Positions 1 through 16,178 of a DNA stretch of 25,554 nt are shown in pieces. The notes under the pieces were generated by a model. It saw nothing but the letters and a program-made list of their open reading frames with translations, ran no database searches and had not been told where the DNA came from. The position numbers and the translations under genes were made by a program. This DNA is from a virus: positions 1 to 25,554 of IMG/VR virus record IMGVR_UViG_3300042887_000443. One strand, 5' to 3'. Positions within the stretch are counted from its first letter, which is position 1; every line of letters begins with the position of its first letter.

Positions 1-47
1 TACGTGTGTATGCCATGCAATTAAACGCAATTTTTGCCGGAGCATAA
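1..47 (+). CDS. C-terminal end of an upstream gene (partial)
   Basis: From base 3 an open frame runs to a TAA at 45-47 and gives the tail RVYAMQLNAIFAGA. The other two frames look poorer: one stops at 22-24 and one reads on through the tail gene as unlikely protein. The stop lies one base before the ATG of the next gene, the same tight junction seen across this block. In T7-type genomes the gene before tail tubular protein A encodes the major capsid protein, so this is probably its last residues. That identity rests on position only. Confidence 0.55.
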   Translation, partial: RVYAMQLNAIFAGA

Positions 48-48
48 T

Positions 49-753
49 ATGGCAAAACTTACACTATTAGACATGACGCAGAACATTCTTTCTGCACTTG
101 ACTCAGACCCTGTAGATAGCATTGACGAAACTGTTGAAGCTGTACAAGTAGCTGAACTTGTTAAAGAAGCCTACTTTGAACTTATTAGCCAGCGTGACTG
201 GCCTTTTCTATTTCAGCTTGCACCACTACAAGCATTGGGTGATACTAGTAACCCAACTAAAATGAAAATTCCAGATACGTGGAATAAGGTTAAGTGGATT
301 AAATATAATAAAAAAGAAGTGCAGTGGGTAGACCCACAAACGTTTAACGATATTATTAGTAACAGAGTTGCACAAGCTGGTGTTATCAACGCTAACGGGT
401 ACGTTATTAACCAAGACCCACAATACTGGACTAGTTACGATGACCAGTTCTTAATCTTTGATGGCTATAACATTACTGTAGACACTACGTTACAAGCTAG
501 CAAGAGTAGCGCATATGGTACACAGCAAGCTAGCTGGACACATACAGACAACTTCATTCCAGCCATTCCAGAGAAGTTCTTTCCTACGTTATTAGCCGAA
601 GCAAAGAGTCAAGCGTTTGTAAACTTAAAGCAACAAGCTAACGCACGAGAAGAACGTAAGGCTACTAGAGGACGTATGGCAATGCGTAACGATAGTTGGA
701 AGAATGAGAATGGTGAAATTAAATACAATACAAGGGTAAATTATGGTCGATAA
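49..753 (+). CDS. Tail tubular protein A (T7 gp11-like)
   Basis: Predicted structural protein of the short tail: in T7 the gp11 ring sits under the portal and carries the nozzle protein. The 234-residue product matches the usual size of about 200. Its N-terminal part has the typical helix followed by YFELISQRDWPFL (about residues 42-54), a signature of this family, and the rest is mixed with an Arg/Lys-rich end. The start is ATG 49, preceded by GGAG at 39-42 with 6 bases spacing; a TTG 15 bases upstream has no ribosome site. The gene lies directly before the tail nozzle gene apart from two small genes, as in related marine podoviruses. Family call from recognised motifs and gene order. Confidence 0.85.
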   Translation: MAKLTLLDMTQNILSALDSDPVDSIDETVEAVQVAELVKEAYFELISQRDWPFLFQLAPLQALGDTSNPTKMKIPDTWNKVKWIKYNKKEVQWVDPQTFNDIISNRVAQAGVINANGYVINQDPQYWTSYDDQFLIFDGYNITVDTTLQASKSSAYGTQQASWTHTDNFIPAIPEKFFPTLLAEAKSQAFVNLKQQANAREERKATRGRMAMRNDSWKNENGEIKYNTRVNYGR

Positions 754-1006
754 AACTGCATACGATAAGGTTATGGACAAGCATCAAGAAAAAAAGCTAG
801 CAGCTAAAGAACGTAAAGAAGAACGTGCAGAGAGTGGTATTGTAAATAAACTTGCCATTGATCGTACTCCTATGGGTTTATACCAAGCACGCTACTCAAT
901 GCGTGGCCCTGTACCAGATGAACTTAAAGGTTTGTTTACACGTAAAGAACGCATCTTAGCAATTGCCAAGCAACGAGGTATTGAAATTGAAGAAGCCACT
1001 GCGTAA
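743..1006 (+). CDS. Small basic virion-module protein, unknown function
   Basis: Encodes 87 residues, strongly charged: the first 35 residues are Lys/Glu/Arg-rich and probably helical, followed by a segment with YQARYSMRGPVPDELKGLF and a basic helix. The start ATG overlaps the tail gene by 11 bases and has AAGGG 6 bases upstream inside that gene. It lies between the two tail tubular genes, where T7 has none but several marine T7-like phages carry small proteins. I do not recognise a family with a known role. It could be a minor tail or assembly factor, which is inference from position. Confidence 0.75.
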   Translation: MVDKTAYDKVMDKHQEKKLAAKERKEERAESGIVNKLAIDRTPMGLYQARYSMRGPVPDELKGLFTRKERILAIAKQRGIEIEEATA

Positions 1007-1142
1007 AGAAGATGCAATGCAGCGTCAACAACGTTTAACCAAACTTGCTCAAGCTGGAGAGAAAGCTAAGCAAGAATTGGGTATTCAAGAAAAACCAGAT
1101 AAAGAAGATGTGAATAGTCACAAGTGGAAAGGTAAAATGTAA
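987..1142 (+). CDS. Small charged protein between tail genes (TTG start)
   Basis: This frame is open and protein-like from TTG 987 to TAA 1140-1142, giving about 51 residues that begin (M)KKPLRKEDAMQRQQRLTK and end in HKWKGKM. It is highly charged and probably helical. TTG 987 has GAGG at 975-978 with 8 bases spacing; ATG 1017 (41 residues) is the alternative, with AAGAAG upstream. The 5' end overlaps the preceding gene by 20 bases and its stop shares one base with the ATG of the nozzle gene (TAATG), so coupling is likely. It fills the gap between 1006 and 1142 exactly. A +1 frameshift joining it to the previous gene is possible but no slippery site is evident. Confidence 0.65.
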   Translation: MKKPLRKEDAMQRQQRLTKLAQAGEKAKQELGIQEKPDKEDVNSHKWKGKM

Positions 1143-3409
1143 TGGCAGCACAAGCTTCAGTCAACGATTCGTTTACGTTTGTAGGTGGTCTAGTCACTGA
1201 AGGCGGCTATTTTATTACACCTCCAAACAGTTACAAAGAAGGTGTAAACGTAATTCCACAAGTGGACGGTGTTATTGAACGCCGTAATGGTTTAGACTAT
1301 GAGAGTGAGTATAACCTATATGCTGCTTCAATCACTGCTGACAGTAAGGATTTATGGGCCTTTACAACGGGTACATGGACTACGGTAGCAGGTAGTGGCA
1401 ATAGGGATTTTATTGTAACTCAAACAGGTCGTTATTTAAACTTTTACAACGCTGCTACAGGCAGCGTCAGTGCATCACGTAATACTGTATTCCGTATTGA
1501 TTTAGAAAGCTACAAGGTTCCCGGTAATCCCAACATTGTTGGCACAGGAATTTGTGGCTTTGCGCCTACTTATGGTCGCCTTATCATTACTAGTGCTGAC
1601 ACACTACCCTTACTAGTAACATATACACCAGTACCGGGTGATGAAAGTGTTTGGGGTACGTTTGATGTTAAAACAATAGACTTAGAAATTAGAGATTTTA
1701 AAGGTAAGCCACTTGTTGCTACAGTTGCTATACTAGGTTACTCTATAGGTCAAACCATTGCCATTGATGCAGAGTTTACATCTGCTGAGTGGGTTAGTTT
1801 AGGTATTGACATTGAGGATGTTAAATACAACTTGTATAACCAAGGTTGGACAGATACACAGATTGATGCTTATAGGATTGCTAATGGCGGTAGTTCGGGC
1901 GATCCGTTGCTAGGCAAGTACCCTTCAAATACTAAGAGTTGGATTTACGGTAAAGATACTAACGACAACTTTGACAGTGCAGTATTAAACAAACAAGACT
2001 TTGGTAACTCCCCTGCCCCTAAAGGGCACTTTATCATTGATCCGTTTGAAAACATTACCTACCGTCCTAAAGCATGTGCATTCTTTGCAGGGCGCACATG
2101 GTATTCAGGTATGCCCACATCTGACCTACTAGGCACTGTGTTCTTCAGTCAAGTGTTGGACACCATTGATAAAGTAGGCAATTGCTATCAAACCAATGAC
2201 CCCTCATCTGAAGTTATTAGTGACTTAGAAGATGATGATGGTGGTACTATTGAAATTCCTGAAGCAGGTGAGATTGTAGCGTTACAAGCCCTAGGTAGAG
2301 GCATTATGGTTTTTGCAACTAACGGTGTGTGGTTTATTTCAGGAATTGACCAAGGGTTCAAAGCATCTAACTACGCAGTTGATCGTGTATCGGCTGTAGG
2401 TTGTGTTAGTGGTAAGAGTGTTGTAGCTGTAGAAGACACCGTGCTTTATTGGAGCACGAGTGGCATTTACGTTATCAGTGCGACTAACTCTGTAGAGTAT
2501 ACATCTACTAACATTAGTGAAAAAAACATTAAAACCTTTTACCAAGACATTCCAATTTTAGGTAAACTATATGCTGAAGGATCGTATAATGCTACAAGTA
2601 AAACTATTTATTGGTTATATTCAAACTCAATTAATACATCTACTAGTAGTGGTCGATTCAACAAAAATACTGTTTTGGCCTTTGACGCTCGCTTAACAAG
2701 TTGGTATTGGTTTTCTATTAATAGTTCTGTAGGTGTAGTTCCTGTATCCATTGAGGTTACAAAAGAAACAACTACTATTAGTAATGAGTATAATGTTATT
2801 GCTGGTGTAGATAATGTATTAGCCAGCACTAACACAGTTGTTGCTAATGTAGCTAACGTGTCTGGTACACGTAAGTCTTACAAAATACTAGCACTACATC
2901 CAGTTACTAGTAACAACTACTCTGTAACCTTTGCTGACTTTGACAATACACGAGATAGCAGCACTAAGTTTAAAGACTGGTATTCGTTTAACAACGCAGG
3001 CGTAGAGCAACAAGCATACTTCATTACAGGGTATAACATGGGTGGTAATGGCCCTGCTCGTGCTAGTACAGGTCAATACCTCACTGTGTTTATGAAGCGT
3101 ACTGAAACATCTTTTGATAGCAACACTAACCCACTAAATCAAAGTAGCTGCAAGATGCAAAGTCGTTGGGACTTTACGGACAATACCTACCCCGGTAAGT
3201 GGGCTGATGAAGTAGAAGTGTATCGTCAACTACGCCCATACTTTACTGATCCCGGCAGTACATTCGATGATGGCTATCCACTAGTTATCTCCAAGAATAA
3301 ACTGCGTGGACGAGGTAAAGCAGTGCAGTTTAAGTTTACCTCACAAACTGGTAAGGACATGAAGATTGTAGGGTGGACAGGAACATTCGTAGGAAATACC
3401 AATGTATAA
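1142..3409 (+). CDS. Tail tubular protein B / tail nozzle (T7 gp12-like)
   Basis: Large structural protein of 755 residues (T7 gp12 is 794) that in T7 forms the hexameric nozzle at the tip of the tail tube. The N-terminus has the family pattern: a short segment with FVGGLVTEGGYFITPPNSY, then NVIPQVDGVIERRNGL, matching the 'GGVSQQPD...N..p.v..gl.rR.p' layout of gp12 proteins. The rest is beta-rich with repeated Gly/Thr/Ser/Asn turns, fitting a beta-propeller. The ATG shares one base with the preceding stop (TAATG). It follows tail tubular protein A apart from two small genes and precedes the gp13-slot gene, as in T7. Assigned from N-terminal pattern, size and order. Confidence 0.85.
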   Translation: MAAQASVNDSFTFVGGLVTEGGYFITPPNSYKEGVNVIPQVDGVIERRNGLDYESEYNLYAASITADSKDLWAFTTGTWTTVAGSGNRDFIVTQTGRYLNFYNAATGSVSASRNTVFRIDLESYKVPGNPNIVGTGICGFAPTYGRLIITSADTLPLLVTYTPVPGDESVWGTFDVKTIDLEIRDFKGKPLVATVAILGYSIGQTIAIDAEFTSAEWVSLGIDIEDVKYNLYNQGWTDTQIDAYRIANGGSSGDPLLGKYPSNTKSWIYGKDTNDNFDSAVLNKQDFGNSPAPKGHFIIDPFENITYRPKACAFFAGRTWYSGMPTSDLLGTVFFSQVLDTIDKVGNCYQTNDPSSEVISDLEDDDGGTIEIPEAGEIVALQALGRGIMVFATNGVWFISGIDQGFKASNYAVDRVSAVGCVSGKSVVAVEDTVLYWSTSGIYVISATNSVEYTSTNISEKNIKTFYQDIPILGKLYAEGSYNATSKTIYWLYSNSINTSTSSGRFNKNTVLAFDARLTSWYWFSINSSVGVVPVSIEVTKETTTISNEYNVIAGVDNVLASTNTVVANVANVSGTRKSYKILALHPVTSNNYSVTFADFDNTRDSSTKFKDWYSFNNAGVEQQAYFITGYNMGGNGPARASTGQYLTVFMKRTETSFDSNTNPLNQSSCKMQSRWDFTDNTYPGKWADEVEVYRQLRPYFTDPGSTFDDGYPLVISKNKLRGRGKAVQFKFTSQTGKDMKIVGWTGTFVGNTNV
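2903..2914. repeat. 12-bp palindrome GTTACTAGTAAC, copy 1 of 3
   Basis: Lies inside the tail nozzle gene, coding V-T-S-N. Identical to the copies at 21180 and 25086, which are in genes on the opposite strand. A codon habit (ACT AGT AAC) may account for it. Confidence 0.55.
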
Positions 3410-3863
3410 GATTGAATACAATGTAGACACTGATAAGTTTTTAGACGATGCATCTGGTGTATTAGTAGAACATTGGGATGAGTTAGCTTTAAATAAAGAA
3501 AATGTTAAGTTAGCCCCAGATCGTAAGAAGTATAAACAACTACAAGAGTTAAACATTATTAATAACATTGTTGTTTATGACGGTGAGAAGGTTGTAGGAT
3601 ACAGTGTTTTAATTGTGCAGCCTAACTTACATTATTCTGAGAATGTGTTTGCACATGTAGACATTATTTACGTGTCTAAACAATATAGACAGAGTAGCAT
3701 TGGTGCACGATTGTTGTTAGCTACTGAACAGTTAGCAAAAGATTTAGGAGCATCTGTTATTACCCACCATGCAAAGCCTTACGTACCAATGATAATTAAA
3801 CCGTTGGAAAAACTAGGCTACACATTGTACGAACACATTTACGGTAAATATTTAGGAGTATAA
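3402..3863 (+). CDS. GNAT-fold protein in the T7 gp13 position
   Basis: A 153-residue protein of the GCN5-related N-acetyltransferase fold. Residues about 50-70 hold the beta hairpin NNIVVYDGEKVVGYSVLIV, and about 88-118 hold motif A, VDIIYVSKQYRQSSIGARLL, with the acetyl-CoA loop Q/R-x-x-x-G-x-A followed by a helix. A C-terminal 'LEKLGYTLYEHIYGKYL' segment is also typical. It overlaps the nozzle gene by 8 bases and has AGGA upstream inside it. T7 gp13 occupies this place and has been linked to virion assembly, and phage members of this family often have a GNAT-like fold, so the role may be structural or assembly rather than enzymatic. Whether it binds acetyl-CoA is unknown. Confidence 0.75.
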   Translation: MYKIEYNVDTDKFLDDASGVLVEHWDELALNKENVKLAPDRKKYKQLQELNIINNIVVYDGEKVVGYSVLIVQPNLHYSENVFAHVDIIYVSKQYRQSSIGARLLLATEQLAKDLGASVITHHAKPYVPMIIKPLEKLGYTLYEHIYGKYLGV

Positions 3864-3864
3864 G

Positions 3865-4281
3865 ATGGCACTAACAACAATTGCAGTTGCAGCCACTGCT
3901 GCTGCTTATAGCAGTTACGAAGCAGGTGAAGCACAAAAAGAACAGTTTCAAGCTGAATCACGTAAAGCAGAAATTCAAAATGTACGTAGTGTTCGCCAAC
4001 AAATCCGTGAAGCTCGTATGACACAAGCGTCTATGACTAACGTAGCGGCACAAACAGGTGGTATGGGTGGTAGTGGTTTAGCGGGTGGTACATCTAGTGT
4101 AAGTGCTCAACTAGCTGGTAATTTAAGTTATATGTCTGACATTGCAGATCAGAACACTGCCATTACTAATGCTGCAATTAGTGCTACTAACTGGCAAACA
4201 GCGGCTACTATTTTTGGAACTATCGGTAGTGTTGCAGGTACATACGGTAAAGTTAAAACTCCTACTAAAGCTGTTGAATAA
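3865..4281 (+). CDS. Internal virion protein (T7 gp14-like)
   Basis: A 138-residue protein with an Ala-rich, mildly hydrophobic N-terminus (about residues 1-20), a Gln/Glu/Arg-rich helix (25-55), a Gly-rich stretch with GGMGGSGLAGG (about 65-78) and a second Ala-rich helical region with a Gly-containing hydrophobic segment near 115-130. T7 gp14 (196 residues) is the first ejection protein and inserts in the outer membrane; the layout of small helical protein with Gly-rich hinge and the position after the gp13-slot gene match. The start ATG follows AGGAG by 6 bases, one base after the preceding stop. Call rests on layout and order more than sequence signature. Confidence 0.7.
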   Translation: MALTTIAVAATAAAYSSYEAGEAQKEQFQAESRKAEIQNVRSVRQQIREARMTQASMTNVAAQTGGMGGSGLAGGTSSVSAQLAGNLSYMSDIADQNTAITNAAISATNWQTAATIFGTIGSVAGTYGKVKTPTKAVE

Positions 4282-4289
4282 GGTTCGTA

Positions 4290-7200
4290 ATGATGCTATA
4301 TGAAGATGACGGTGCGGAACTCCCTGAACAAAGCTTATACACTGCTGAAGACACTGTAGTTGCTCCTGACACTAGTGTTGGTAACTATTCAGTTGTTAAA
4401 GGCATTGTAGCTGCTGCTACAGGTAACACAGACATTCCAGATAAAGTTAACTTCGACCAGTTTGTAGATAGCAACTGGCGTACTACTGTTCCTGAACAGA
4501 ATGACATTGACCGTAACATTGCGGTTAAAGCTGCATCTGAAGGTAACGTAAACATTGTTCAACAAACACTAGATAGTGTTGCTACACGCAACAGGATGTA
4601 TGGTGAACTCAGTATTAATAACGTTAACGATGTACGAGCTAAACTAAAAGAGTTGACAACACAAGCTGTAGAGACAACTGCTGTACGTAACCCTGCTGTA
4701 CTATTCAACAACACCCCTGCTGAGATTAACGAGTCTACTGCTCGTATGTCTAAACGGTTAAGTGCGGCTGCTACACTTGATAAAGCAATTGAAGATGGTA
4801 AGAGTTGGTCTACTGTAGGTTTAGGTTTCTTGTACGAGTTTACACCGATGGCTGCTGAACAAGGTGCAGCTATTGACCGAGTGGCAGTTAAGTATGGTGT
4901 CCCTGCGGATGCTATTAGTCGTTCTACAGGTAGATCACAAACTAAAAGTTATTTACAAGCGGCATTTAGTGCTCAACCTGAAGAATTAAAAGGTGAGTGG
5001 CTAAGTGGCTTGTATAACGATTTAAAGGATAGCTGGCTTATCACTGATTGGCAAGCTGCATTACTAATACAAGAAGTAGCCACTGGTGCAGAACAAACAT
5101 GGAATGGTTTGTCTGACTGGTTGGATAGACTTGGTGTAGTTGGCGCTGCTCTATCTGGTGGTGTAACTTTAACTAAGTCAGCTAAACTATTTAAGAACGC
5201 TAGTGCTCTACAAAGTGTAGAACGATCACTAGCTGCTGCTGGTGGCAAGAATGCCATTATGTCTGCTGAAGCTGCTAAGATTGCTTCAGAGGTAGCTAAC
5301 AAACAACGTTTACAAGCTGTTGGTGTAGTTGCAGGTGAACTCACTGGTATCAGCACAGCCATTGACTTAGGCAAACTAGTCAGTGTTAACGCTGCTAAGG
5401 TATTGCCTGATTCAATTACAACTGCTGCTGATGACCTACAGAAAACTATTCGTGCACCTATTGAGAAACTAATTGCCGAACTACAGGATGTGGTTGCGGC
5501 TAAAGGTGTTCGTGCTTCAGAAGCTGCTGCTGAACTTACAGACTTACAGCGCATTTATTCTAAAACAAACAACCCTAACGTACATTCAGTAGACCCATTT
5601 ACTTTGTCTGAAAATGGTTTAGTCATTACTGGTAAAGTATTTTACAAACCAGATACAGCTACTAGCTTCTTAACTAAAGAAGCGGCTGAGTCATACATTA
5701 AAGCTGCTGATCCTGCTAACACTATGGGTATGAAGGTTGTACCAGATACAACTAACACAGGGTTCTTAGTAGAAGAAAGCATTAAGAAAGATTTACAACT
5801 ACGTAAGTCAGCACTAGAAGCACTAGTGTTAGAAGAGTTAAACAAATCAAAACCTAAGCGTGGTAAGAAAGCTCCTGTTGTAGAGACTCCTCCATTAGAA
5901 CGTGCCCCTGCACCGAAAGCTTTAACTGACAGTAAACCTCGCTATAAAGCATCTATGTTGTCTTTTGAAGATGATGTAGATAAAGCTGCCTACCAAATTG
6001 GGAGCAAGACTGCTACTAGTAAGAGTGATAAAGAAATTAAAACGTGGCTACAGAATACAACAGGTTGGGATGATGCCACCATTGCTGGTCATGCACAAAC
6101 TGTTCGTGACTACATTAAAGCTAACGAAGACATGGTAGATGACGTTGGCAACATTATGGTTGCTAGTCAAGTACCTACAGGTCGCCCATCATATACTGCA
6201 CAAGTTGATATTAATAGAACATTTGCTAACTTACAAGTTGCTCCCGGTACAACTACTGTGGGCAACATTACTATGTCTGCTGGTGTTAAGAAAGCCTTCA
6301 TTGTAGAGTTTGTTAGCAAGCTAGGTAAAGCACTAGGTATGGACAATCGTAAACTTGTAGTCATGGACTACGAGGATATGGTTAAAAGTAAAGACCCGTC
6401 TGTACAAGTTTATGTATCCAATGTAAAAGAAAAACACGGTAGTGCAGGTGCTATTCATTACGATTTAGGTAATAGTCAATCGTTAATAGTAATGCGTAGG
6501 GGTACTGTTGATAAACCCCTATCTCTGCGTCAATACATGGAGAACTTTGCTCACGAGTATGGCCATGCTTTTGAAGCAGAGTTTGCTACTAAGTATTTTG
6601 GTATTATTAATAGCAGTTTTAATAAGTGGTTACGTGCTAAGGGTATTGCCTTTAAAGGTGACGGTATTAAAAAATCCGTTACTGATGTATTTCCACCTGA
6701 AGCTCTGTTAGAATATCGTTCCATTACCAATGCAGAAGACATTGCTGTCAACTGGATTGACAAGTGGGCTGGTGGAGACTACGGTAAATACAAAGCATAC
6801 GAGTCTGAGATTCATAAGTGGGCATCTAGCTACAGTGAATTTTTTGCCGAGAACTTTGCTAAATGGGCCTTCACTGATGAGATACCTACCACGGTATTAG
6901 GGCAGACATTTAAGCGCCTTGTAGACGGTTTTAAGCTCATTGCTAGCGATGTTATGGATAGGCTAGCTAAGCTAGGTATTGTAGCTGATGTGGGTAAGGT
7001 GGACAAGAACATTGCTGCCATGCTTAACACACACGTTAAACAACTTCAAGCTGAAGCTGTTGAGGTGAAAGCTAATATGACAATGATTGCTTCTGAAAGC
7101 AAAAAGATTAAACCAACACTAGCCTCTCTACAAAAAGAGTTGGATGAAGTAATGGACGAATTAAATGCCATTGAAGACGCTGAAAAAGGATTGAAGACAG

Positions 7201-10199
7201 GGTGGCTAGTTGAACAACCTATCAACCGTACGCTAGACTATTCCATCGTTGGTAAATACTCTGACGATGACATTAATAGCGCAGCACGGTTTGCTATGGG
7301 TGATTGGGCGTTGTCCACCTCTAACGAACTATACTCACAGCGTGTAGTTGGTATTAACCAAGCTAGTCGCTACCAGAAGCTATTAACCAACTTTGTACGA
7401 CCATCCATTGAGAAGCTAAGTAAAGCTGACATGGTTGCACTAAACGATGCATTAGTCATCGGTGATAAAGAAGGTAAAGTATTCTCAGCACATGAACTAG
7501 CTGGTCAAGGTCTGTCATTAAAAGCTCGTGATGCCTACTACAAAGTACGTGCATTGCGTGATGTTATGTGGCAAGTACGTAACGATGTGGCTGTGAAGAG
7601 CATGACCCGCAGAGGGTTTGTACAACTTAACACAGGGATTAAGTTTGATGACAATGGCAACCAACTGTTTGGTAAGCCAACAACACCTAAAGAAGGTAGT
7701 TTTGTCTATCTTGGCGATACTGGAACTATGCAACGTATGAGTGCAGAGTTTCGTGAAGAGATTGCTACTAAGGGTTATGTCTTCTACGAAGCTGCTGAGC
7801 CTGTACTAATTGATGGTAAATACCGCAAGACCTTTGGCTTTAAAGTTGGTAGCTTTGCTAGCCAACCTATTGATACGGTAATTCCCTATCGTGCTGGTGA
7901 GTATCGCCGTATTTACAGCGATGAGTATTTTGTTAAACTGAAGTCTAGCTATGAAGTTGATGGTGCTATTGAAGAGGTTACTACTACTCATCGTACTGCT
8001 GCTAGCGTGGCTGATGCCAATAATTATGTAAAAGCTTTATCTGAAGCTCAGTCGTTACATAAAGCAGGTAAGCTAACCATTCAAGATGCTAGCCGCTTAA
8101 TGGAGCCTTATGGATGGCGACCAGAAGAAATCATTGACGCATTAAACAACAACAGGTTTGGTACAGACTTTAAAGCTGAAGTTAGGTTTACCCGTACTGA
8201 TGATGATTATGTAGAAGAAGCAATTGGCCTTACTAGTAACTTTGCTAGCAAGCGTGGTGATAAGGTGTTGTCTGTATTCGGTAAGGATACAGTTAACACA
8301 GTGAGTCCGTTAGATAGTGTGGCTGCTGAGATTGGTAACACTGCATATGTAGCGTCTACAACTGAGTGGCGTGAGAGTCACATTCAACGTTGGTTCAACA
8401 CCTTTGCTGATGACTTGCCAGCTAACGTGCAGACAATGACACCTGACAATGCATTCCGCTACATGTTAAACAACAAAGGATATTATGTTGGGCAAAGCAA
8501 ACGTTTATCTGTAGCAGAGAAGGTGCAAGACTACATCATTGCTCAAATGAATATTCCTACTAAAGAAGAGAAGGGATATTTAGGCTTTATGCGTATGATA
8601 AGTGAGGGTATTGAGGGTGGTGTAGGTGGCAAACCAGTTATGAAACTAGGTGCTGCATTACGTGCTACCAAAGACTACCCTACATGGGCACGTACAATTG
8701 CATTTCACAGCTTCTTCGCATTCAACCCTGTGCAGTTCTTTATGCAAGGTATGAACGCTTTCAATGCTGTAGCCATCTCCCCTGTGCATGGATTGCGTAG
8801 TGCTAAGAGTAGTGCTATGTATGCTATGGCTTTGTTTAGCGATCAAGAAAGTATTTGGCAAACTGTTGCTAAGACTAACAAACTAACTAACCTTGGTTTG
8901 GGTATGTCTGAGGAAGAGTTCGTTGAAGTTGTACGGGCTATTCGCCGCACTGGTCTAATGGACGGTATTAACACTACTAGTTTGTATGGTGCTGAAGTAG
9001 GTAAGTACGGTATTATGAACAAGCTAACTCGTAACGTAGGAGACTTAGCTGCTACACCATTCAACTCTGGTGAAGGCTATAGCCGACTAGTTAGCTTTGA
9101 CATTGCACGTAGGGAGTTTATTGAAACTAACCCCGGTGCTGCATGGTGGACTGATGATAGCTTAGCTAAGATTCTAGAGCGCCAAGATGACTTGACTCAG
9201 AACATGACTAAGGCTAACGTAGCTTCATGGCAACAAGGTTGGAAGTCTATCCCTGCACAGTTCGTACAGTATCAAGTTAAATTGATGATGAACGTTGTAC
9301 AGAGTTTGATGGGCAACCCAAGAGCATTCACACAGAAAGAAGCACTACAGTTATTGGTAACACACGCACTAGTGATGGGTACTGCTGGTAACTTCTTATG
9401 GCCTTTCCGTGACCTCCTCACAGATGTAGTACCCGAAGATATGTCTCCAGAAGCTCGTCTGTACGTACAACAAGGTGTTGTTGCAGGTATGATTGGTTCC
9501 ATCACTGATGGTGAAGCTAAGCTAGCCTTAGGTAGTCGATTCAACACTTTTAAATATTACGAAGATGTTGTTAAGGGGTTGTTAGACCCTGAGAAGACAT
9601 TCATGGAAGTAGCTGGTGGCCCGTCAGGGTTTGCTGCACTACGTATCCTAGGTAGCTTTGGTGAAGCATTCTCAATCATTGCTAAAGCTCCTATGACTAT
9701 GGATACATTGCAAATTGCACTAACTGAAATTGGTAAAGGAAGTTTCTCTTTCTTTAACAACATTCAGAAGTCACGCATTGCAATGGCTAACTACAATCAA
9801 GTACAGAGTGGTGCTGGTGGTGCAATGTTCCGTGTTACAGATACTGAAGCATGGATGTTAAGTTTCGGTATTCCACCTGCTGTGCAAGAAGATTTGTCAA
9901 TATTGTACAGTAGTCGAAAGTCACAGGGGGATGATGTTAAAACATCTGCTAAAGCAATTGGTAAACACTCCATGTTAGCTTTAACAGCGTTACGTAACAA
10001 TGACACTGAAGGACATAGAACACACGCTGCAATTGTACAGGCTATTCTAAATACATATTCAGGTAGCGATTTACAGCAACTATATAAAGAAGCATATAAA
10101 GTAGAGGCATTTACTCAATACGAAAAGATGCTTACAGATCAAGCTGTAAAGGATTGGGCAGTGAAAGACATTGTAGTAAATACAGGAGTTAACGAATAA
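4290..10199 (+). CDS. Giant internal virion/ejection protein with zinc-metallopeptidase motif
   Basis: A 1969-residue protein, far longer than T7 gp16 (1318), in the place of the gp15/gp16 ejection proteins. The first 500 residues are Ala/Thr-rich helix. A basic, Pro-rich linker (about 515-565, with KPKRGKK) follows, then a domain with HEYGH at residues 755-759 (HExxH) and SEFFAENFA with glutamates at 850 and 854 as candidate third zinc ligands. This matches a gluzincin-type metallopeptidase. The C-terminal 900 residues are long helices with a few hydrophobic stretches (near 1470 and 1695), as expected of proteins that cross the envelope during DNA ejection. It has no transglycosylase motif; that activity is encoded two genes downstream. 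ATG 4290 follows AAGG by 6 bases; ATG 4293 is an alternative. The protease call is motif-based, the substrate unknown. Confidence 0.75.
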   Translation: MMLYEDDGAELPEQSLYTAEDTVVAPDTSVGNYSVVKGIVAAATGNTDIPDKVNFDQFVDSNWRTTVPEQNDIDRNIAVKAASEGNVNIVQQTLDSVATRNRMYGELSINNVNDVRAKLKELTTQAVETTAVRNPAVLFNNTPAEINESTARMSKRLSAAATLDKAIEDGKSWSTVGLGFLYEFTPMAAEQGAAIDRVAVKYGVPADAISRSTGRSQTKSYLQAAFSAQPEELKGEWLSGLYNDLKDSWLITDWQAALLIQEVATGAEQTWNGLSDWLDRLGVVGAALSGGVTLTKSAKLFKNASALQSVERSLAAAGGKNAIMSAEAAKIASEVANKQRLQAVGVVAGELTGISTAIDLGKLVSVNAAKVLPDSITTAADDLQKTIRAPIEKLIAELQDVVAAKGVRASEAAAELTDLQRIYSKTNNPNVHSVDPFTLSENGLVITGKVFYKPDTATSFLTKEAAESYIKAADPANTMGMKVVPDTTNTGFLVEESIKKDLQLRKSALEALVLEELNKSKPKRGKKAPVVETPPLERAPAPKALTDSKPRYKASMLSFEDDVDKAAYQIGSKTATSKSDKEIKTWLQNTTGWDDATIAGHAQTVRDYIKANEDMVDDVGNIMVASQVPTGRPSYTAQVDINRTFANLQVAPGTTTVGNITMSAGVKKAFIVEFVSKLGKALGMDNRKLVVMDYEDMVKSKDPSVQVYVSNVKEKHGSAGAIHYDLGNSQSLIVMRRGTVDKPLSLRQYMENFAHEYGHAFEAEFATKYFGIINSSFNKWLRAKGIAFKGDGIKKSVTDVFPPEALLEYRSITNAEDIAVNWIDKWAGGDYGKYKAYESEIHKWASSYSEFFAENFAKWAFTDEIPTTVLGQTFKRLVDGFKLIASDVMDRLAKLGIVADVGKVDKNIAAMLNTHVKQLQAEAVEVKANMTMIASESKKIKPTLASLQKELDEVMDELNAIEDAEKGLKTGWLVEQPINRTLDYSIVGKYSDDDINSAARFAMGDWALSTSNELYSQRVVGINQASRYQKLLTNFVRPSIEKLSKADMVALNDALVIGDKEGKVFSAHELAGQGLSLKARDAYYKVRALRDVMWQVRNDVAVKSMTRRGFVQLNTGIKFDDNGNQLFGKPTTPKEGSFVYLGDTGTMQRMSAEFREEIATKGYVFYEAAEPVLIDGKYRKTFGFKVGSFASQPIDTVIPYRAGEYRRIYSDEYFVKLKSSYEVDGAIEEVTTTHRTAASVADANNYVKALSEAQSLHKAGKLTIQDASRLMEPYGWRPEEIIDALNNNRFGTDFKAEVRFTRTDDDYVEEAIGLTSNFASKRGDKVLSVFGKDTVNTVSPLDSVAAEIGNTAYVASTTEWRESHIQRWFNTFADDLPANVQTMTPDNAFRYMLNNKGYYVGQSKRLSVAEKVQDYIIAQMNIPTKEEKGYLGFMRMISEGIEGGVGGKPVMKLGAALRATKDYPTWARTIAFHSFFAFNPVQFFMQGMNAFNAVAISPVHGLRSAKSSAMYAMALFSDQESIWQTVAKTNKLTNLGLGMSEEEFVEVVRAIRRTGLMDGINTTSLYGAEVGKYGIMNKLTRNVGDLAATPFNSGEGYSRLVSFDIARREFIETNPGAAWWTDDSLAKILERQDDLTQNMTKANVASWQQGWKSIPAQFVQYQVKLMMNVVQSLMGNPRAFTQKEALQLLVTHALVMGTAGNFLWPFRDLLTDVVPEDMSPEARLYVQQGVVAGMIGSITDGEAKLALGSRFNTFKYYEDVVKGLLDPEKTFMEVAGGPSGFAALRILGSFGEAFSIIAKAPMTMDTLQIALTEIGKGSFSFFNNIQKSRIAMANYNQVQSGAGGAMFRVTDTEAWMLSFGIPPAVQEDLSILYSSRKSQGDDVKTSAKAIGKHSMLALTALRNNDTEGHRTHAAIVQAILNTYSGSDLQQLYKEAYKVEAFTQYEKMLTDQAVKDWAVKDIVVNTGVNE

Positions 10200-12466
10200 T
10201 GGCAACCTATCAAGCAAACATTACTAAGAACATTGAGCCAGCAATGGCTAATCCAGCAACATTACAACAAGCTGGTGCATCTACTCGGGCTGCTATTCAA
10301 GCACTAGGAGAGGGTGCTAGTGCTGTATATAAGGGGTATGTAGAGCAAGAGGTAGCTAACATCGAAGAAGGAGCCTCTAACCTAGCTCAAGAATTCTTTA
10401 TTAGTAATCAAGCTGCACAAGTTGCAGGGAGACAAGCTGCTCAAATGCAGAGTGGCGCACCTATGGCAGGGAGTGTGTTTGCAGAAACATTGTTAGGTGC
10501 ACAGGGTGAAGATGCACAAGCAAAGGCTGCACAACAACTACGTTCCTACGATAGTGAGTTAGTTCGTTTAAAGGCTGCTGCTGAAGGTGGTATGTCTAAT
10601 GAACAGTATGTCTCCCGCATTGATGCGTTGACAAAGAAAGCCATTGCACAATATCCCGGTTTGTCTAACCAGATTCGTGAAAAGGTGGGTGCTGTTACAG
10701 GGTTGCCATACGCTGATCGTTGGGCACAGATGAACTATGTGCGTGAACGGTTTTCTAAAGTTGAAGCACCAAAGACTACTACACCTGAAGACATGGCAAT
10801 GAAAGACATTGACGATGCTGCTAAGACAGGTTTGTTTGGTACTCGTGAAGAGTTGCTAACTGATTATAAGACTAATCGTGGCACATATGATGTTAAGATG
10901 ACTGGGTTTAAACAAGTGCTACAAGCACAAACACAAGTTAACGTTATTAAGAACAACGTAGGTGCATTGAGTGGTCAAAGTGATTTAGAAGCTGACACTG
11001 TACGTGCAGGGTTCTCTGCCATCTTTGATGGAGGTTTAGGTGCAACTACACTAAGCCAGTCTGTTAATGACAAAGAACAAGTGTTAGGAACAACCCTAAA
11101 GTTAATGGCTGAAGGTAAAAGTATTACAGTTGATCCTGTAGCATTCCAAACATCTATTGCTGTACACAACGCACAGATGAAGACAAACATTGAGGGTTCA
11201 CGCACACAAGCCTACCGTTCAATTGATGCCTACCTTGCTAAAAACCCTAACGTGTCTGATGGTAAGCGTAAAGAGTTGTATGCAGACATTGATAGACAAG
11301 CCAACCAGTCATTGAGTTTATATGCTGATGATAAGGGTGTAGGGTTGTTAGCCATTGCTAACATCTTTAAAACCTATCGTGATAAGAGTTTAACAGAGAA
11401 GCAACAACTAGTTAACCTTGCAATTCAACAGCAATCTGCTATGCAAAATAACCCTATGGTTATGGCATATTGGGCTGGTGGTACTGCTCGTGAGAATCTA
11501 CAGCGTACTAATAAGGACTTTTATGAGTTTATGGTGGGACAAGAGAATGAGTTAACCACATCGGTTAGTGGTGTACGTAACCTCGTAACTGGTGCTACCA
11601 ACCTAGCTAACGTACAGCGTGTGCTAGTGCAAGCACAACAAGCCCCCACTGCTGTACCCACTGACCCTGTGGCATCTCCAGCAACTACTCGTGCAGCACA
11701 CCAAGCACTAGGTGCTAGTGCTGCTGAACTGTTAAAGAAGACCTCCCTTCTCCCTGCTGAAGTTAACATTGCCAGTGCTGCCTTCTCTACTAACGTAGCT
11801 ACAGGTGCTAACAGCTTAACTTTAGCTCGTGATTATAAGAAGTACGGTGAGCAAATTGCTAAGCTACCAGAAACTGACCAAGCTGTCATTAAGAGTAATG
11901 TAAGCAACAGTGTGTCAGGTGCTGTTATTAGTATCAACGGTGTTAAACAGGCAATTGAAGCTAAGTATAAGACAACACTTACATTAGGTGTTAACGATGC
12001 TGGTGAGATTAGTGTGGTTGTACCTCAACAACAAGCCACTGGTTTATCCAACCGTCCGTTGGTATCAGGTGGTGGTTTTAACGCTGCCGCTGCTGCTGAG
12101 TTTATGAAGCAGGTTAAACCCATGCTGAATAACATTGTGTACGGTACATCTATGCTTACTATGAAACAACCTAAAGAAGTTGGCACAGAGTTTGCAACTG
12201 TTATTAATAAGAATGAGCGTTACGGTGGATTCTATAAGAGTGAGGCACAGCCTGTAACTCCTGCTGCGACAACTCCTACTACACAAACATCCGATTTAGA
12301 CACACAAGTAAAAGGTGCGCTACAAAAGATGAAAGAAGTAGACCCTACACTTAACACAGAGTACATATTAAATGCATACAAAAACGCAACTACTGAGCAA
12401 AAGAAAACATTAGCTGAAAAGTTTAAGTCTAATACTGTTACTATGGCTGACCTTAATACTAAGTAA
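10199..12466 (+). CDS. Internal virion protein (T7 gp15-like candidate)
   Basis: A 755-residue, mostly helical protein, close to the size of T7 gp15 (747), which builds part of the ejection channel. Residues 1-180 are Ala/Gln/Glu-rich and likely coiled; a Pro/Thr/Ala linker (near 480-500, with APTAVPTDPVASPATT) and a Thr/Pro linker (near 685-700) separate further helical segments; the last 55 residues form a small charged helical domain. The ATG shares one base with the TAA of the giant ejection protein, with AGGAG about 10 bases upstream, so the two are likely translated together. No catalytic motif is visible. Assignment is by size, composition and location; the gp15 and gp16 orders appear swapped relative to T7. 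Confidence 0.65.
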   Translation: MATYQANITKNIEPAMANPATLQQAGASTRAAIQALGEGASAVYKGYVEQEVANIEEGASNLAQEFFISNQAAQVAGRQAAQMQSGAPMAGSVFAETLLGAQGEDAQAKAAQQLRSYDSELVRLKAAAEGGMSNEQYVSRIDALTKKAIAQYPGLSNQIREKVGAVTGLPYADRWAQMNYVRERFSKVEAPKTTTPEDMAMKDIDDAAKTGLFGTREELLTDYKTNRGTYDVKMTGFKQVLQAQTQVNVIKNNVGALSGQSDLEADTVRAGFSAIFDGGLGATTLSQSVNDKEQVLGTTLKLMAEGKSITVDPVAFQTSIAVHNAQMKTNIEGSRTQAYRSIDAYLAKNPNVSDGKRKELYADIDRQANQSLSLYADDKGVGLLAIANIFKTYRDKSLTEKQQLVNLAIQQQSAMQNNPMVMAYWAGGTARENLQRTNKDFYEFMVGQENELTTSVSGVRNLVTGATNLANVQRVLVQAQQAPTAVPTDPVASPATTRAAHQALGASAAELLKKTSLLPAEVNIASAAFSTNVATGANSLTLARDYKKYGEQIAKLPETDQAVIKSNVSNSVSGAVISINGVKQAIEAKYKTTLTLGVNDAGEISVVVPQQQATGLSNRPLVSGGGFNAAAAAEFMKQVKPMLNNIVYGTSMLTMKQPKEVGTEFATVINKNERYGGFYKSEAQPVTPAATTPTTQTSDLDTQVKGALQKMKEVDPTLNTEYILNAYKNATTEQKKTLAEKFKSNTVTMADLNTK

Positions 12467-12467
12467 T

Positions 12468-13016
12468 ATGGACATTCTTAAATTCTTTGATGACTTCTTT
12501 AAAACAGGTAAGCCACCTAAAGTGGAACAACCTGTACAACAAGAAGCACCTGCTCCATCTAAACCCGATTACTATGAGAGGCTGAAGGCGGCTGAGAGTA
12601 GTGGTCAGGCTGATGTTAAGTCTAAAACTAGTAGTGCTACAGGGCATCACCAGTTTATTGAGGGTACATGGGAATCTCTAACTAAGAAGTATAAAAAAGA
12701 CTATACACTAGATGATAGGAAAGACCCTGCTAAATCGTTAGAGATTGCTAAATTATTTACTGAGGAGAATAAATCTTCTTTGCAGAAAGCATTGAAGAGG
12801 GAGCCTACAGATACAGAATTGTATGCGGCTCACTTCTTAGGTACAAGTGGGGCTAAGAAGTTCTTGATGGCATCACCTTTTGATAAGGCAAGTAAGGTTG
12901 TTCAGAAGGGTCAAGTACAGCGTAATAAGAATATCTTCTACGATAGTAAGACGGGTAAAGAACGTACAGTTTCACAGGTGTACGAAGTCCTTAAAACTAA
13001 GATTGGTGAGGAATAA
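12468..13016 (+). CDS. Lytic transglycosylase (SLT-like), virion-associated
   Basis: A 182-residue enzyme expected to cleave peptidoglycan during DNA entry or at lysis. After a Pro/Gln-rich leader (about 15-33), residues 35-70 hold the lysozyme-like core: YYERLKAAESSG with Glu43 as the candidate acid catalyst, then SSATGHHQFIEGTW, which corresponds to the 'GlmQf.pgTw' motif, and AAHFLGTSGAKKFL at 120-133, the 'AHFLG..GA..fL' block common in phage transglycosylases. No signal peptide or membrane segment. In T7 this domain is the N-terminus of gp16; here it is a separate gene at the end of the late block, one base after the previous stop. The AAGTAAT upstream is a weak ribosome site, so coupled translation is likely. 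A role as the lysis enzyme is the alternative. Confidence 0.8.
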   Translation: MDILKFFDDFFKTGKPPKVEQPVQQEAPAPSKPDYYERLKAAESSGQADVKSKTSSATGHHQFIEGTWESLTKKYKKDYTLDDRKDPAKSLEIAKLFTEENKSSLQKALKREPTDTELYAAHFLGTSGAKKFLMASPFDKASKVVQKGQVQRNKNIFYDSKTGKERTVSQVYEVLKTKIGEE

Positions 13017-13018
13017 GA

Positions 13019-13039
13019 AACGGGGCATTGCGCCCCGTT
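13019..13039. terminator. Convergent (bidirectional) terminator hairpin
   Basis: A perfect 8-bp GC-rich stem, AACGGGGC (13019-13026) and GCCCCGTT (13032-13039), with a 5-base loop. It sits in the only gap between the + strand late block (stop at 13016) and the - strand block (stop at 13042). Read leftward, the stem is followed by TTTCTTATT, a fair U-tract, so it should work best for the replication operon; read rightward the tail is CGTCATTT, which is weaker. Seen directly; function inferred. Confidence 0.8.
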
Positions 13040-13041
13040 CG

Positions 13042-13332
13042 TCATTTAGTTAGTTGTCCAACCATGTTATTAATAACTGTGTTAACTGACTGCTTAGTCT
13101 CTTCAGCCATTAACCTACGTTCTTCTTTGGCAATTAGATATTGAACGTTGTGCATACATTTGTACAAGTCTTCTAGTGGTTTACCCTTATCCTTGTAGCG
13201 TAGCAAGTATTTAAGGGCACTAGCTTCCCAACCATTCAAATCGTACGCTTCCCACACTTCCCAAGGTTGAATGGCACGTTCTTTATAGTGGTTGCCACCA
13301 TACTGTGTTTCCATAACTTGATTATAGTTCAC
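13042..13332 (-). CDS. DUF3310-family phage protein
   Basis: Encodes 96 residues. The central part matches the DUF3310 family common in phages: YGGNHYKERAIQPWEVWEAY (about residues 11-30), then a helix with ALKYLLRYKDKGKPLEDLYK and a following HNVQYLI helix, corresponding to the family's 'HY....iqP.e......gl.f..gn.iKYl.Ry..K....edL.Ka..yl..li'. Its molecular role is unknown. The start is GTG 13332, chosen because AAAGG lies 8 bases upstream; ATG 13314 has none. It overlaps the preceding gene by 11 bases and is the last gene of the leftward block, its stop 3 bases from the terminator hairpin. Confidence 0.8.
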   Translation of the reverse strand: MNYNQVMETQYGGNHYKERAIQPWEVWEAYDLNGWEASALKYLLRYKDKGKPLEDLYKCMHNVQYLIAKEERRLMAEETKQSVNTVINNMVGQLTK

Positions 13333-13510
13333 TTGGTTTACCTTTCAACAAAGCGGGAATCTTGTCTTCTTTCTCTAGTCGTGCAATTTCTTTTGACAGT
13401 AAGGATACTAGCCCCTCTTGCAACAACAACTGCATCATACGGGGTTCAATGTCTTTCAACACCACTGTTGCAGACCCATCTTCATGCTCTTCAATCATTT
13501 CAACTTGCAT
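13322..13510 (-). CDS. Small acidic/helical phage protein
   Basis: A 62-residue protein starting at ATG 13510, which has GGAG 7 bases upstream; the longer open frame to 13579 has no such site. The sequence opens MQVEMIEEHEDGSATVVLKD, a short beta segment, then a helix EPRMMQLLLQEGLVSLLSKE and a charged tail. I recall similar short proteins of unknown role in many T7-like and siphophage genomes. It overlaps the gene before it by 11 bases and the gene after it by 11 bases. No function assigned. Confidence 0.75.
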   Translation of the reverse strand: MQVEMIEEHEDGSATVVLKDIEPRMMQLLLQEGLVSLLSKEIARLEKEDKIPALLKGKPSEL

Positions 13511-13670
13511 TTGATTTCTCCATAAAACTGTTACAAACTTGGTGCATCTTACCATCTTCTGTCTTAAACTGTAAGACAATTTCCACTGTCTTATCTGTCT
13601 CGTACACCTTCAGCTTTAAGTAGCGTCTCAGTGCCTCCATCATTCGATAACTTTCTTCATTGCTGCTCAT
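13500..13670 (-). CDS. 56-residue protein of unknown function
   Basis: A short gene in the gap between the sigma factor and the next small gene. ATG 13670 has an excellent ribosome site, AAGGAG, 5 bases upstream. The product starts MSSNEESYRMMEALRRYLKL, a charged helix, continues with a beta-like stretch (VYETDKTVEIVLQFKTEDGK) and ends at a TGA at 13500-13502. It overlaps the sigma gene by 14 bases and the next gene by 11. The perfect fit, the Shine-Dalgarno sequence and normal amino-acid content make it likely real. Function unknown; its place directly after the sigma gene makes a regulator of that factor a speculative option. Confidence 0.75.
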   Translation of the reverse strand: MSSNEESYRMMEALRRYLKLKVYETDKTVEIVLQFKTEDGKMHQVCNSFMEKSNAS

Positions 13671-14178
13671 ACCTACTCCTTAATGTTTTCTTTGCTTTGT
13701 ACACTAGGTTCTTAGCATGTTTAGAAGAACAACACAGTGCAACACCAATATCATTGTAACACATTCCTTGAGCATGTTTCATGTACAGTGCCTTGCGTTG
13801 TTTTTCTGGTAAATCACCAATCATATCTAACAGCATAAAAAACTCTTGCTTAGTGTTTAAGAGTGTTTCAGGGGTAACACTAGTCACACTATCAACTTCT
13901 GTTTTAATGCTCTCAAATGGCCTTCTAGATGCCTTGTTGATGGCAATCGTGCATAGCCAAGTATAGAACTGACTATCACCACGAAACGTATTCAGATACC
14001 TAAAGGCTGCTGCAAACGTATCTTGTGTCAATTCTTCTGCAAGAGCATTGTCATTAACTCGTCTACGTAAGAAACTAAATATACGTTTCCAATATTTAGT
14101 TGTCAGGGAGGAGTAAGCTTTTTCACTCCCCCCTAACGCTTCAGCTATTAGTATCTCATCTTCAGATTTCACAGACAC
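13657..14178 (-). CDS. ECF-type sigma-70 family RNA polymerase sigma factor
   Basis: A protein of about 173 residues with the two domains of an ECF sigma factor. Region 2: EILIAEALGGSEKAYSSLTT, then ELTQDTFAAAFRYLNTFRG and FYTWLCTIAINKASRR, matching 'eDltQevFlrawr.l..frg...f.tWL..IarN.a.d.lR'. Region 4: LPEKQRKALYMKHAQGMCYN, DIGVALCCSS and AKNLVYKAKKTLRSRYEQQ, the -35 recognition helix-turn-helix, matching 'LPe.qR.vl.L.y.eglsy.EIA..Lg.s.gTVkSrl.rArk.Lr'. It should bind host core RNA polymerase and direct it to particular promoters. No anti-sigma gene is recognised. The start is uncertain: GTG 14178 or 14172 gives a standard-length N-terminus but neither has a good ribosome site, and the frame is open to TTG 14229 inside the reductase gene. 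Its 5' end overlaps the last codons of the reductase. Confidence 0.85.
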   Translation of the reverse strand: MSVKSEDEILIAEALGGSEKAYSSLTTKYWKRIFSFLRRRVNDNALAEELTQDTFAAAFRYLNTFRGDSQFYTWLCTIAINKASRRPFESIKTEVDSVTSVTPETLLNTKQEFFMLLDMIGDLPEKQRKALYMKHAQGMCYNDIGVALCCSSKHAKNLVYKAKKTLRSRYEQQ

Positions 14179-16069
14179 CCGATACACAGGCCAGTTGTTG
14201 AGCACCCTCAACGTTATCTGTATACTCAATGAAGGTTTCCCAATCTACAGACTTAGGCATAGCACTCTTCAATGTGTCGTAGATAGCCTTGTCAATCTCC
14301 TCGTACGGGGCTTGTTTGTAACTGCCACCATCCCACGGTAGGAAACTGATACCGCTAATCTCATCGAAGTGTTCCCACACCCAAGCACCAACTGAAGGCC
14401 AATCTTTCTCTTTAACGTACACAGTTACTGAGGGCTTATGTTCACACCAGTGACGTTGATAGGTTAGCCACAACTTCAAGTGTGTGAAGGAGTCCAACTC
14501 ATCTCGTGTAACACAACCATCTGGTGCTTTCATAGGAAAGCTAAAGATAGTAGTGTCGTGAGGCTTCATTACATCCGCTTCTGAAGGTACTCCCTGACCC
14601 TGTAGAAAGGCTGTGATAGGGTCTTTGTTATCATTCCGAACACGGCGAATGTAGTAATCACTGTGGCGAGCATGAATGCCACTGGCACTATCAACAAGTT
14701 GAGAAACAGTACCAGAAGGCTTAACACACGTAATAGCAGCGGATTGAGGAATTCCCAATTCATTAGCAAGTTCCTTATTAGTAATAACAGCTAGCTCACG
14801 CAAACCACTTAATCTTGATGACAGACCCACATCATCAATGTTATTCAACAATGCGGAGTCTAGGATGCCTGTGATTGATACACCTAGCAAACGTTCCTCT
14901 TCAGTGTTCTTCTGCCACACCTTCCTTAGATAAGGGAATTCTGTAAGAGTAGACTGGAAAGTGCCAAGGATAGAGGCCAATCTAACTTTTCGCTGTAAAC
15001 TTGCGTCATCATCGTCTGCTCGGGCAACGACTTCAGTAAGGTTACAGAACTGATACGGACGTAAGATGATTTCGGAGCATGGGTTAGTCCCAAATTCATA
15101 AGAGCTGTCTCTCCGTCCATGTTTTTCAACCGTAGACTTAGCAGCGGCTCGGGAAAATACTCCTCGTTCGCCAGAGTATGACTGATACAACGCCAACCAT
15201 TCTGACATAAATTCCCCAACGGTGGGGCGTTCATTATAGCTCGCACTATTATTTGCAAGTGCTCGTTGTCCTTCTCGCTCCCACCACTGTCCGGCTTTGG
15301 CATGACGCATCCTATCATCTGATAAATCACTGAGGCTAATCATCGCTGACCTACGCACCCCACCAACAACCACGACTTCTCCAATCTTGCACATAATGTC
15401 ATGGCATTCCAAGCTGTTAAGTTTCCTACCCGCCGCACCTTTAAACTTATTAGTAACAAATTCAAAGAGTTCAGTGAGGGGTTTAGGGCCGCTAGCTCGA
15501 CCACCAAACGTTTTAAGGCGTGCCCCTGCCGGACGCACCTTGGTAACATCCCACTTCGGTACTTCCCCGGAATATAGCAAGGCGATGAGTTGACGTAAAC
15601 TCTTGGCCCAACCTGCTTTAGAGTCAGACACAGAGATAGTAGTGTCGCTATTAAACATCTGCGTAGGTACTTCAGGTAGCTTGTTAACATACTTACTCTC
15701 AACTGAGAATCCAACACCAGTGCCACATAACAAGATGTACATGGCTTCATCAAAGGATTTAACATCATCTACAGGGAGGTATGAACAGTTATACCCTGCT
15801 GTGTTGTCTCGTGTTAGTGCCTCTCCTGCGGTCATCATAGCTCGCATAGAAGGCATTACTTCGTGGTTTAGAACTGCTGAGTGTAACTCGCTGTACAACT
15901 CTACAGGCATAGCATACTTCATCTTATGTGTAAGATGGCGATCCATAAACTTCATGTAACGATCAACTGTCTCAGGCCAATGCTCACGGCGATTCTCTTC
16001 TTCAATGAATCGGCTGTAACGGCTCTTGGCAATGAATGTTTCGTAAATACCCATTTCGTGTTTAATCAT
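14162..16069 (-). CDS. nrdJ: Adenosylcobalamin-dependent ribonucleoside-triphosphate reductase (class II RNR)
   Basis: Reduces ribonucleotides to deoxyribonucleotides using coenzyme B12, supplying DNA precursors. The 635-residue product has the cysteines of the monomeric Lactobacillus-type enzyme: Cys95 in YNCSYLPVDD, Cys331 (thiyl radical) in NPCSEIIL with Asn329 and Glu333, Cys342 in QFCNLTEV, and the C-terminal pair Cys628 and Cys633 in ACVSGVCEI that re-reduces the active site. The 331-342 and 628-633 spacings equal those of the L. leichmannii enzyme (408-419 and 731-736). CVKPSGTVSQLVDSASGIH is the conserved phosphate-binding block. ATG 16069 has GAGG about 9 bases upstream; the longer open frame to 16105 lacks a site. 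It overlaps the sigma gene at its end and a 38-codon gene at its start. Confidence 0.93.
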   Translation of the reverse strand: MIKHEMGIYETFIAKSRYSRFIEEENRREHWPETVDRYMKFMDRHLTHKMKYAMPVELYSELHSAVLNHEVMPSMRAMMTAGEALTRDNTAGYNCSYLPVDDVKSFDEAMYILLCGTGVGFSVESKYVNKLPEVPTQMFNSDTTISVSDSKAGWAKSLRQLIALLYSGEVPKWDVTKVRPAGARLKTFGGRASGPKPLTELFEFVTNKFKGAAGRKLNSLECHDIMCKIGEVVVVGGVRRSAMISLSDLSDDRMRHAKAGQWWEREGQRALANNSASYNERPTVGEFMSEWLALYQSYSGERGVFSRAAAKSTVEKHGRRDSSYEFGTNPCSEIILRPYQFCNLTEVVARADDDDASLQRKVRLASILGTFQSTLTEFPYLRKVWQKNTEEERLLGVSITGILDSALLNNIDDVGLSSRLSGLRELAVITNKELANELGIPQSAAITCVKPSGTVSQLVDSASGIHARHSDYYIRRVRNDNKDPITAFLQGQGVPSEADVMKPHDTTIFSFPMKAPDGCVTRDELDSFTHLKLWLTYQRHWCEHKPSVTVYVKEKDWPSVGAWVWEHFDEISGISFLPWDGGSYKQAPYEEIDKAIYDTLKSAMPKSVDWETFIEYTDNVEGAQQLACVSGVCEI

Positions 16070-16178
16070 CTTCCATTTCCTCTTCGTTATAAATTGCAAT
16101 TTCAATAATACCTAAATACAAACTTACATATACACCGGGTACTGATGCAAACTCTATGCCTACACACACCCCTGTCAT
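16062..16178 (-). CDS. 38-residue hydrophobic protein with acidic tail
   Basis: A very short gene filling the gap before the reductase. ATG 16178 overlaps the TGA of the previous gene (ATGA), the standard coupling seen in this operon, and its TAA (16062-16064) lies 8 bases inside the reductase gene. The peptide begins MTGVCVGIEFASVPGVYVSL, continues hydrophobic with a beta-like or membrane-associated character, and ends EEEMEDD. It contains the reductase ribosome site in its last codons, so its translation may help open the reductase start. Function unknown; it could be a leader peptide or a small regulatory protein. Confidence 0.6.
   Translation of the reverse strand: MTGVCVGIEFASVPGVYVSLYLGIIEIAIYNEEEMEDD

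Follow-up and report, generated by a model that had tools for sequence, protein, structure and literature searches.

The closest described systems to the locus reported here are two phages that encode sigma factors of their own. Salmonella phage 7-11, an unrelated phage of 89.9 kb (Grimontviridae according to its record), carries deep in its leftward gene block an ECF-like sigma factor, SaPh711_gp47, which drives the late genes from bipartite promoters with the host RNA polymerase. Its proven late promoters read GTAAtg-(16)-aCTA, and its early genes use host sigma70 (PMC8948821). In Escherichia phage phiEco32 the factor phi32_gp36, also annotated as an ECF sigma, serves the middle and late genes; it has no homology to region 4 and reads a promoter of a single element, tAATGTAtA (PMC8948821), and the phage has a co-regulator, gp79. 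The authors of the 7-11 work predicted further, undescribed sigma-promoter pairs (PMC8948821).

Here we describe an ECF sigma gene in a clade of uncultured phages that, like 7-11, places it deep in the leftward block. On comparative grounds it very probably encodes a late sigma factor that redirects host RNA polymerase to two late ECF-type promoters. The clade is related to the SIO1/VpV262-type podophages without a T7-type RNA polymerase, for whose late-gene switch we know of no answer.

The window, by which we mean the whole stretch of DNA analysed (one viral record, 25,554 bases), contains two converging gene blocks (Table 1). Genes for a tail protein, a tail appendage, a 1969-aa internal virion protein and a lytic transglycosylase lie on the plus strand, and the window holds the distal half of these rightward virion and lysis genes. 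The minus strand, from 25552 to 13042, carries the replication genes (primase, helicase, DNA polymerase A, nuclease, metallophosphatase, ThyX and HNH), followed by ribonucleotide reductase (RNR), the sigma gene, small ORFs and finally a DUF3310 gene.

Table 1. Features of the window around the sigma gene and at the junction of the two blocks.
Feature	Position	Strand	Basis or remark
Late (virion and lysis) block	34..13016	plus	Gene annotations, synteny with relatives
Terminator-like hairpin where early and late blocks converge	13018..13040	minus	
DUF3310 gene, last of the early block	13042..13332	minus	Pfam
Small conserved ORF, family c19	13322..13579	minus	Also in sigma-less G061
56-aa ORF, overlaps the sigma stop	13500..13670	minus	Candidate sigma partner
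ECF (RpoE/AlgU-like) sigma factor gene, 173 aa	13657..14178	minus	GTG start at 14178, stop at 13657
Sigma region 4 (Sigma70_r4_2, residues 115-166), -35 recognition helix-turn-helix	13681..13836	minus	Pfam, structure model
Sigma region 2 (Sigma70_r2, residues 28-85), core binding and -10 recognition	13924..14097	minus	Pfam
Ribonucleotide reductase (RNR), a conserved neighbour lying immediately upstream of sigma and overlapping it	14162..16105	minus	

ECF (group 4) factors consist of sigma regions 2 and 4 only, without region 1.1 or 3, and are about 170-200 aa long. By its size and by both domains the window gene is confirmed as a member of this group of the sigma70 family, as an earlier note made from the letters alone had proposed: Pfam search gave Sigma70_r2 (E = 3.4e-12, 46.4 bits against a cut-off of 24) and Sigma70_r4_2 (E = 1.6e-8, 34.5 bits against 25.7). 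The product also passes the sigma70-ECF superfamily model of NCBIfam (64.7, cut-off 42.9) and matches PHROG 1740, 'RNA polymerase sigma factor' (3.6e-23). Its top-scoring NCBIfam model is RpoE, at 87 bits and thus short of the equivalog cut-off of 236, and we therefore call the factor RpoE-like rather than RpoE. The structure model has a low overall confidence (mean pLDDT 62) with only the sigma-4 part good; since that part matches solved sigma-4 domains, the model may be taken as mild support for region 4. An in-frame extension of the gene to a TTG at 14229 is possible, but relatives keep the GTG start. Values of dN/dS against close relatives are 0.08-0.13, by which measure the gene is under purifying selection.

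Among solved structures, AlgU and E. coli sigmaE are nearest by profile (93-100 bits; 6in7, 8z6g, 1or7 and 6jbq, all of the RpoE/AlgU group). These nearest characterised factors have an AAC-type -35 and a TC-type -10, as the clade does, but they share about 30% identity or less with the window sigma, beside which no anti-sigma gene is recognised. They are nonetheless closer by profile than either described phage factor, in whose sub-families the window sigma does not fall: SaPh711_gp47 can be aligned over region 2 alone (25% over 80 aa; hhalign probability 27%), and with phi32_gp36 the profile match spans just 39 residues of region 2, at a probability of 10%. The sigma matches among annotated phage isolates come from crAss-like phages and others, with about 20-43% identity, and none is from the Zobellviridae; the match in Salmonella S.Kent 1-2-1 lies in a 1.9-kb record without annotation. 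A scan of a bacterial genome collection returned three weak relatives (27-30% identity), and consequently no bacterial donor is named.

The terminase, portal, capsid and internal virion proteins of the clade match those of ICP2 and VpV262, and its capsid protein is 47-51% identical to that of SIO1-type phages. With VpV262, ICP2, SIO1 and P12053L the clade shares the virion module and a family A DNA polymerase, and as in other Zobellviridae phages its early and late blocks run in opposite directions. On these proteins and the genome plan we regard it as Zobellviridae-like. The description of the phage as T7-like in the earlier note does not hold in the strict sense; what stands is a relative of Zobellviridae with a shared virion module and genome plan. 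As that note had expected, no T7-type RNA polymerase (PF00940) was found in the window, in 39 related contigs, in VpV262 or in ICP2, while the T7 control was positive, and the clade accordingly lacks the single-subunit enzyme by which Autographiviridae are recognised. VpV262, ICP2 and P12053L differ from the clade in having no recognisable sigma factor when scanned. A CobS/CobT-like gene pair, seen in G013 and G014 between the early gene c35 and the primase, is conserved across the clade and is also present in ICP2.

The relatives of the window come from metagenomic collections of viral contigs, the closest long one (G001) having 84% nucleotide identity over 23.7 kb. Scans of IMG/VR showed that 80 loci encode a DNA polymerase related to that of the window, and that 33 viral contigs or loci encode a related sigma factor (31 at 65-98%, one at 55% and one fragment). 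A 19-sequence profile finds sigma once each in 18 of the 22 longer related contigs, and the apparent absences in G009, G010, G018 and G019 are not real, these contigs being cut inside or before the RNR-sigma site. Throughout, the gene follows RNR and precedes DUF3310, the exception among contigs spanning the site being G061; three covering contigs have other small genes between RNR and sigma. This position is fixed in the sigma-bearing covering genomes over 53-98% protein identity and, judged by this conservation, sigma is a core gene of the clade.

The earlier note had placed the late promoter to the left of the window and had suggested looking for a shared -35/-10 pair before the late genes. 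Such a pair, of ECF type, is indeed seen upstream in the relatives, at two late promoters rather than one. In the longer relatives a non-coding region of ∼1.1 kb separates c35 from c33, the tail-fibre-like first late gene, and from it the two blocks run apart, the early one from c35 and the late one from c33. A 29-base bipartite motif, GTRACGT-N16-TCTAAG, is common to sigma-bearing relatives and precedes both c33 (by 30-46 bp in most contigs) and ICP17 (by 23-30 bp), the latter being the homologue of ICP2 gp17, which precedes the major capsid gene. The motif stands before ICP17 in all 16 sigma-bearing contigs containing that gene and before c33 in all nine covering that region, the weakest of these copies scoring 13.7 bits; G001, for example, carries both copies, GGTGACATTTTTTAATTAGCCTACTCTAAG and GATGACCTTTGTATATATATAAGGTCTAAG. 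With its AAC-type -35, TCTAA -10, fixed N16 spacer and normal distance from start codons, it has the anatomy of an ECF promoter, and sigmaE promoters (GGAACTTTT) resemble it in geometry (PMC1804206).

When a position weight matrix was built from the ICP17 sites alone, its top further matches were the c33 sites. A matrix of 21 non-redundant sites, excluding the spacer, gave 28 matches above 18 bits in 1.11 Mb, all 28 at ICP17 or c33, with an expectation from shuffles of 2 per set, and only the late strand carries strong copies. Searched across 2.9 million viral contigs, the strict pattern GTRACGTTTTT-N11-CWCTAAG matched 34 stretches, 33 of them before ICP17 and one before c33, and nowhere else in that collection. 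At ICP17 the -35 shares bases with the stop codon of the gene before it, and coding constraint could therefore account for some of the conservation there, a caveat that does not hold for the c33 site. The motif is weak at c33 in G018, and at ICP17 it is lost or changed in G032 and G034, two contigs that stop short of the sigma site. Upstream of ICP17, L247/G034 has an extended -10 (TGGTATAAT) in place of the sigma motif.

We regard the motif as the candidate cognate promoter of the window sigma, read in the relatives; the window starts downstream of it. A matrix scan of the 25,554 bases found no late promoter, the one match above 10 bits lying on the early strand inside a gene, as chance would give, and the late block of the window would be served by a sigma-type promoter upstream. 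The late -35 (GTAA) and -10 (CTA) of 7-11 are strikingly similar to the clade motif, although 7-11 has eight such promoters and the clade two per genome, or three kinds of site with G012 included. In that contig (IMGVR_UViG_3300017766_000946) an HNH-like endonuclease gene (4767-5307, minus strand) is inserted between RNR and sigma with a sigma-type promoter of its own, TGTGAGTATTT...CTCTAAA, from which feedback on sigma could also be possible.

The divergent region holds further elements. Early-strand TATAAT sites are visible in some relatives, and in G007, G008, G018 and G019 the early strand has repeats of the form TGTAAG-N5-TGTAAG-N8..9-TGTATAAT, in up to three copies per region, which resemble early promoters whose -35 region is, unusually, repeated; other groups have similar TGTAAG repeats, mostly without TATAAT. 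Also conserved there is a G-rich element, GGGGGGTAGGGGGGTTGGTTTTATATTGCAATG, with TAAAATTATCTCATAAAAATTA after it and a very AT-rich stretch before it; it is possibly a replication origin or a structural element.

The assignment of the motif to the phage sigma is supported by the way in which the two change together. G041 and G042 encode a diverged sigma (31% and 33% identity, about 94 bits), and their ICP17 promoters read GTAAACTTTT-N-CTCTAAG, a GTAAACT-N16-TCTAA type. The c33 promoter of G041, inspected afterwards, reads GTAAACTTTT-N-CTCTAAA with unchanged spacing; G042 covers the ICP17 site only. Across ten lineages the two promoters of each genome differ by 18 bases in sum, and none of 200,000 random re-pairings was as low (mean 38, minimum 20), a result to be read as support rather than as an exact probability because the lineages are related and, for G012/G054, each site was read on a different contig from a single sample. 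Such parallel change at two sites that are not homologous points to a single trans-acting reader.

The sigma-less relatives bear on who that reader might be. G061 (49.7 kb) looks complete, as its ThyX gene is split across the contig ends; its RNR gene is directly followed by c19, searches for the two sigma Pfam domains gave no match, and the motif is absent at ICP17. Before its first late gene it has GGAACTT-N16-TCTAAC, which is close to the sigmaE consensus. The contig of G062, a near relative, does not include the RNR site, and its lack of sigma is assumed from this kinship; before its first late gene stands TTGACA-N16-TATAAT, a consensus sigma70 promoter. ICP2 has an annotated sigma70-like promoter at the position matching ICP17. 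Related phages without the factor thus appear to rely on promoters of host type at these positions. The G061 site and the closeness of the late motif itself to the sigmaE consensus would fit a host RpoE-type sigma reading the late promoters, with the phage factor acting as a supplement, a competitor for core enzyme or a means of anti-sigma release. We consider this very improbable, since the sigma-bearing phages have GTRACGT rather than GGAACTT, the promoters diverge where the phage sigma diverges (GTAAACT at both sites in G041), and G062 has turned out to carry a sigma70 consensus instead.

It is very improbable that a different phage regulator, an activator or a repressor, binds the motif while sigma serves host or middle genes. 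There are as a rule just two copies per genome and the bare sequence is compatible with such a regulator, but the ECF promoter anatomy, the normal distance from start codons, the co-variation with sigma and the restriction of strong copies to the late strand all speak against it. Phage-borne sigmas acting on host programmes are known, the sporulation-type factors of Bacillota phages being an example (PMC9429907), yet a recent host acquisition kept as cargo or for host reprogramming without a fixed phage role is scarcely credible for a gene with a fixed position, purifying selection, matched late promoters and no relative above 30% identity in the bacterial genome collection.

ECF factors usually, though not universally, have a cognate anti-sigma gene beside them. 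Searches of Pfam and NCBIfam recognised none beside the window sigma, and its use in the phage is probably constitutive. The 56-residue gene put forward in the earlier note as an anti-sigma candidate proves to be a real and conserved ORF that co-occurs with sigma, its anti-sigma role staying that of a candidate. The family (52-61 aa, overlapping the sigma stop) accompanies sigma in 21 of 23 contigs, with G012 and G017 having sigma without it, and is absent from G061, a distribution that suggests a possible sigma partner; no Pfam or NCBIfam family matches it at E <= 0.1. The c19 gene was rejected for the same role, because its presence in G061 means that it is not linked to sigma.

Taken as a late sigma, the factor would act as follows. 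Host RNA polymerase with the housekeeping sigma would start in the divergent promoter region and read leftward through the long early and replication operon. Sigma, coupled to RNR, is among the last genes of this operon; its placement near the end of the early block, noted at first from the window, agrees with gene order in the relatives, and a gene so near the far end would be made late and so set the timing. The phage sigma would then join the host core enzyme and take it to the GTRACGT-N16-TCTAAG promoters before c33 and ICP17, where transcription of the rightward virion and lysis genes would start. The motif at the late units, the co-variation and the case of G061 lend comparative support to this direction of host polymerase to the late genes, as first suggested from the window.

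It is possible, and we put it forward tentatively, that one lineage switched its late transcription from host-sigma promoters (sigma70 in G062 and ICP2, RpoE-like GGAACTT in G061) to an RpoE-type sigma of its own, and that sigma and its two promoters then drifted together into at least three specificities (GTRACGT, GTAAACT and GTGAGKA/GTGAGGT). If true, these phages would form a natural series showing the birth of a new sigma-promoter pair and its independence from the host.

The same logic has been proven in 7-11 and phiEco32, and the pair described here therefore belongs to a known kind. It appears to be one of the predicted further pairs, independent and undescribed in the open-licence literature, and, with those two phages, would bring the independent cases of an ECF-type late sigma to three. 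An uncultured clade found in many metagenomes thereby gains a concrete candidate for its late-gene factor, candidate promoters for that factor, and a series of matched sigma-promoter variants.
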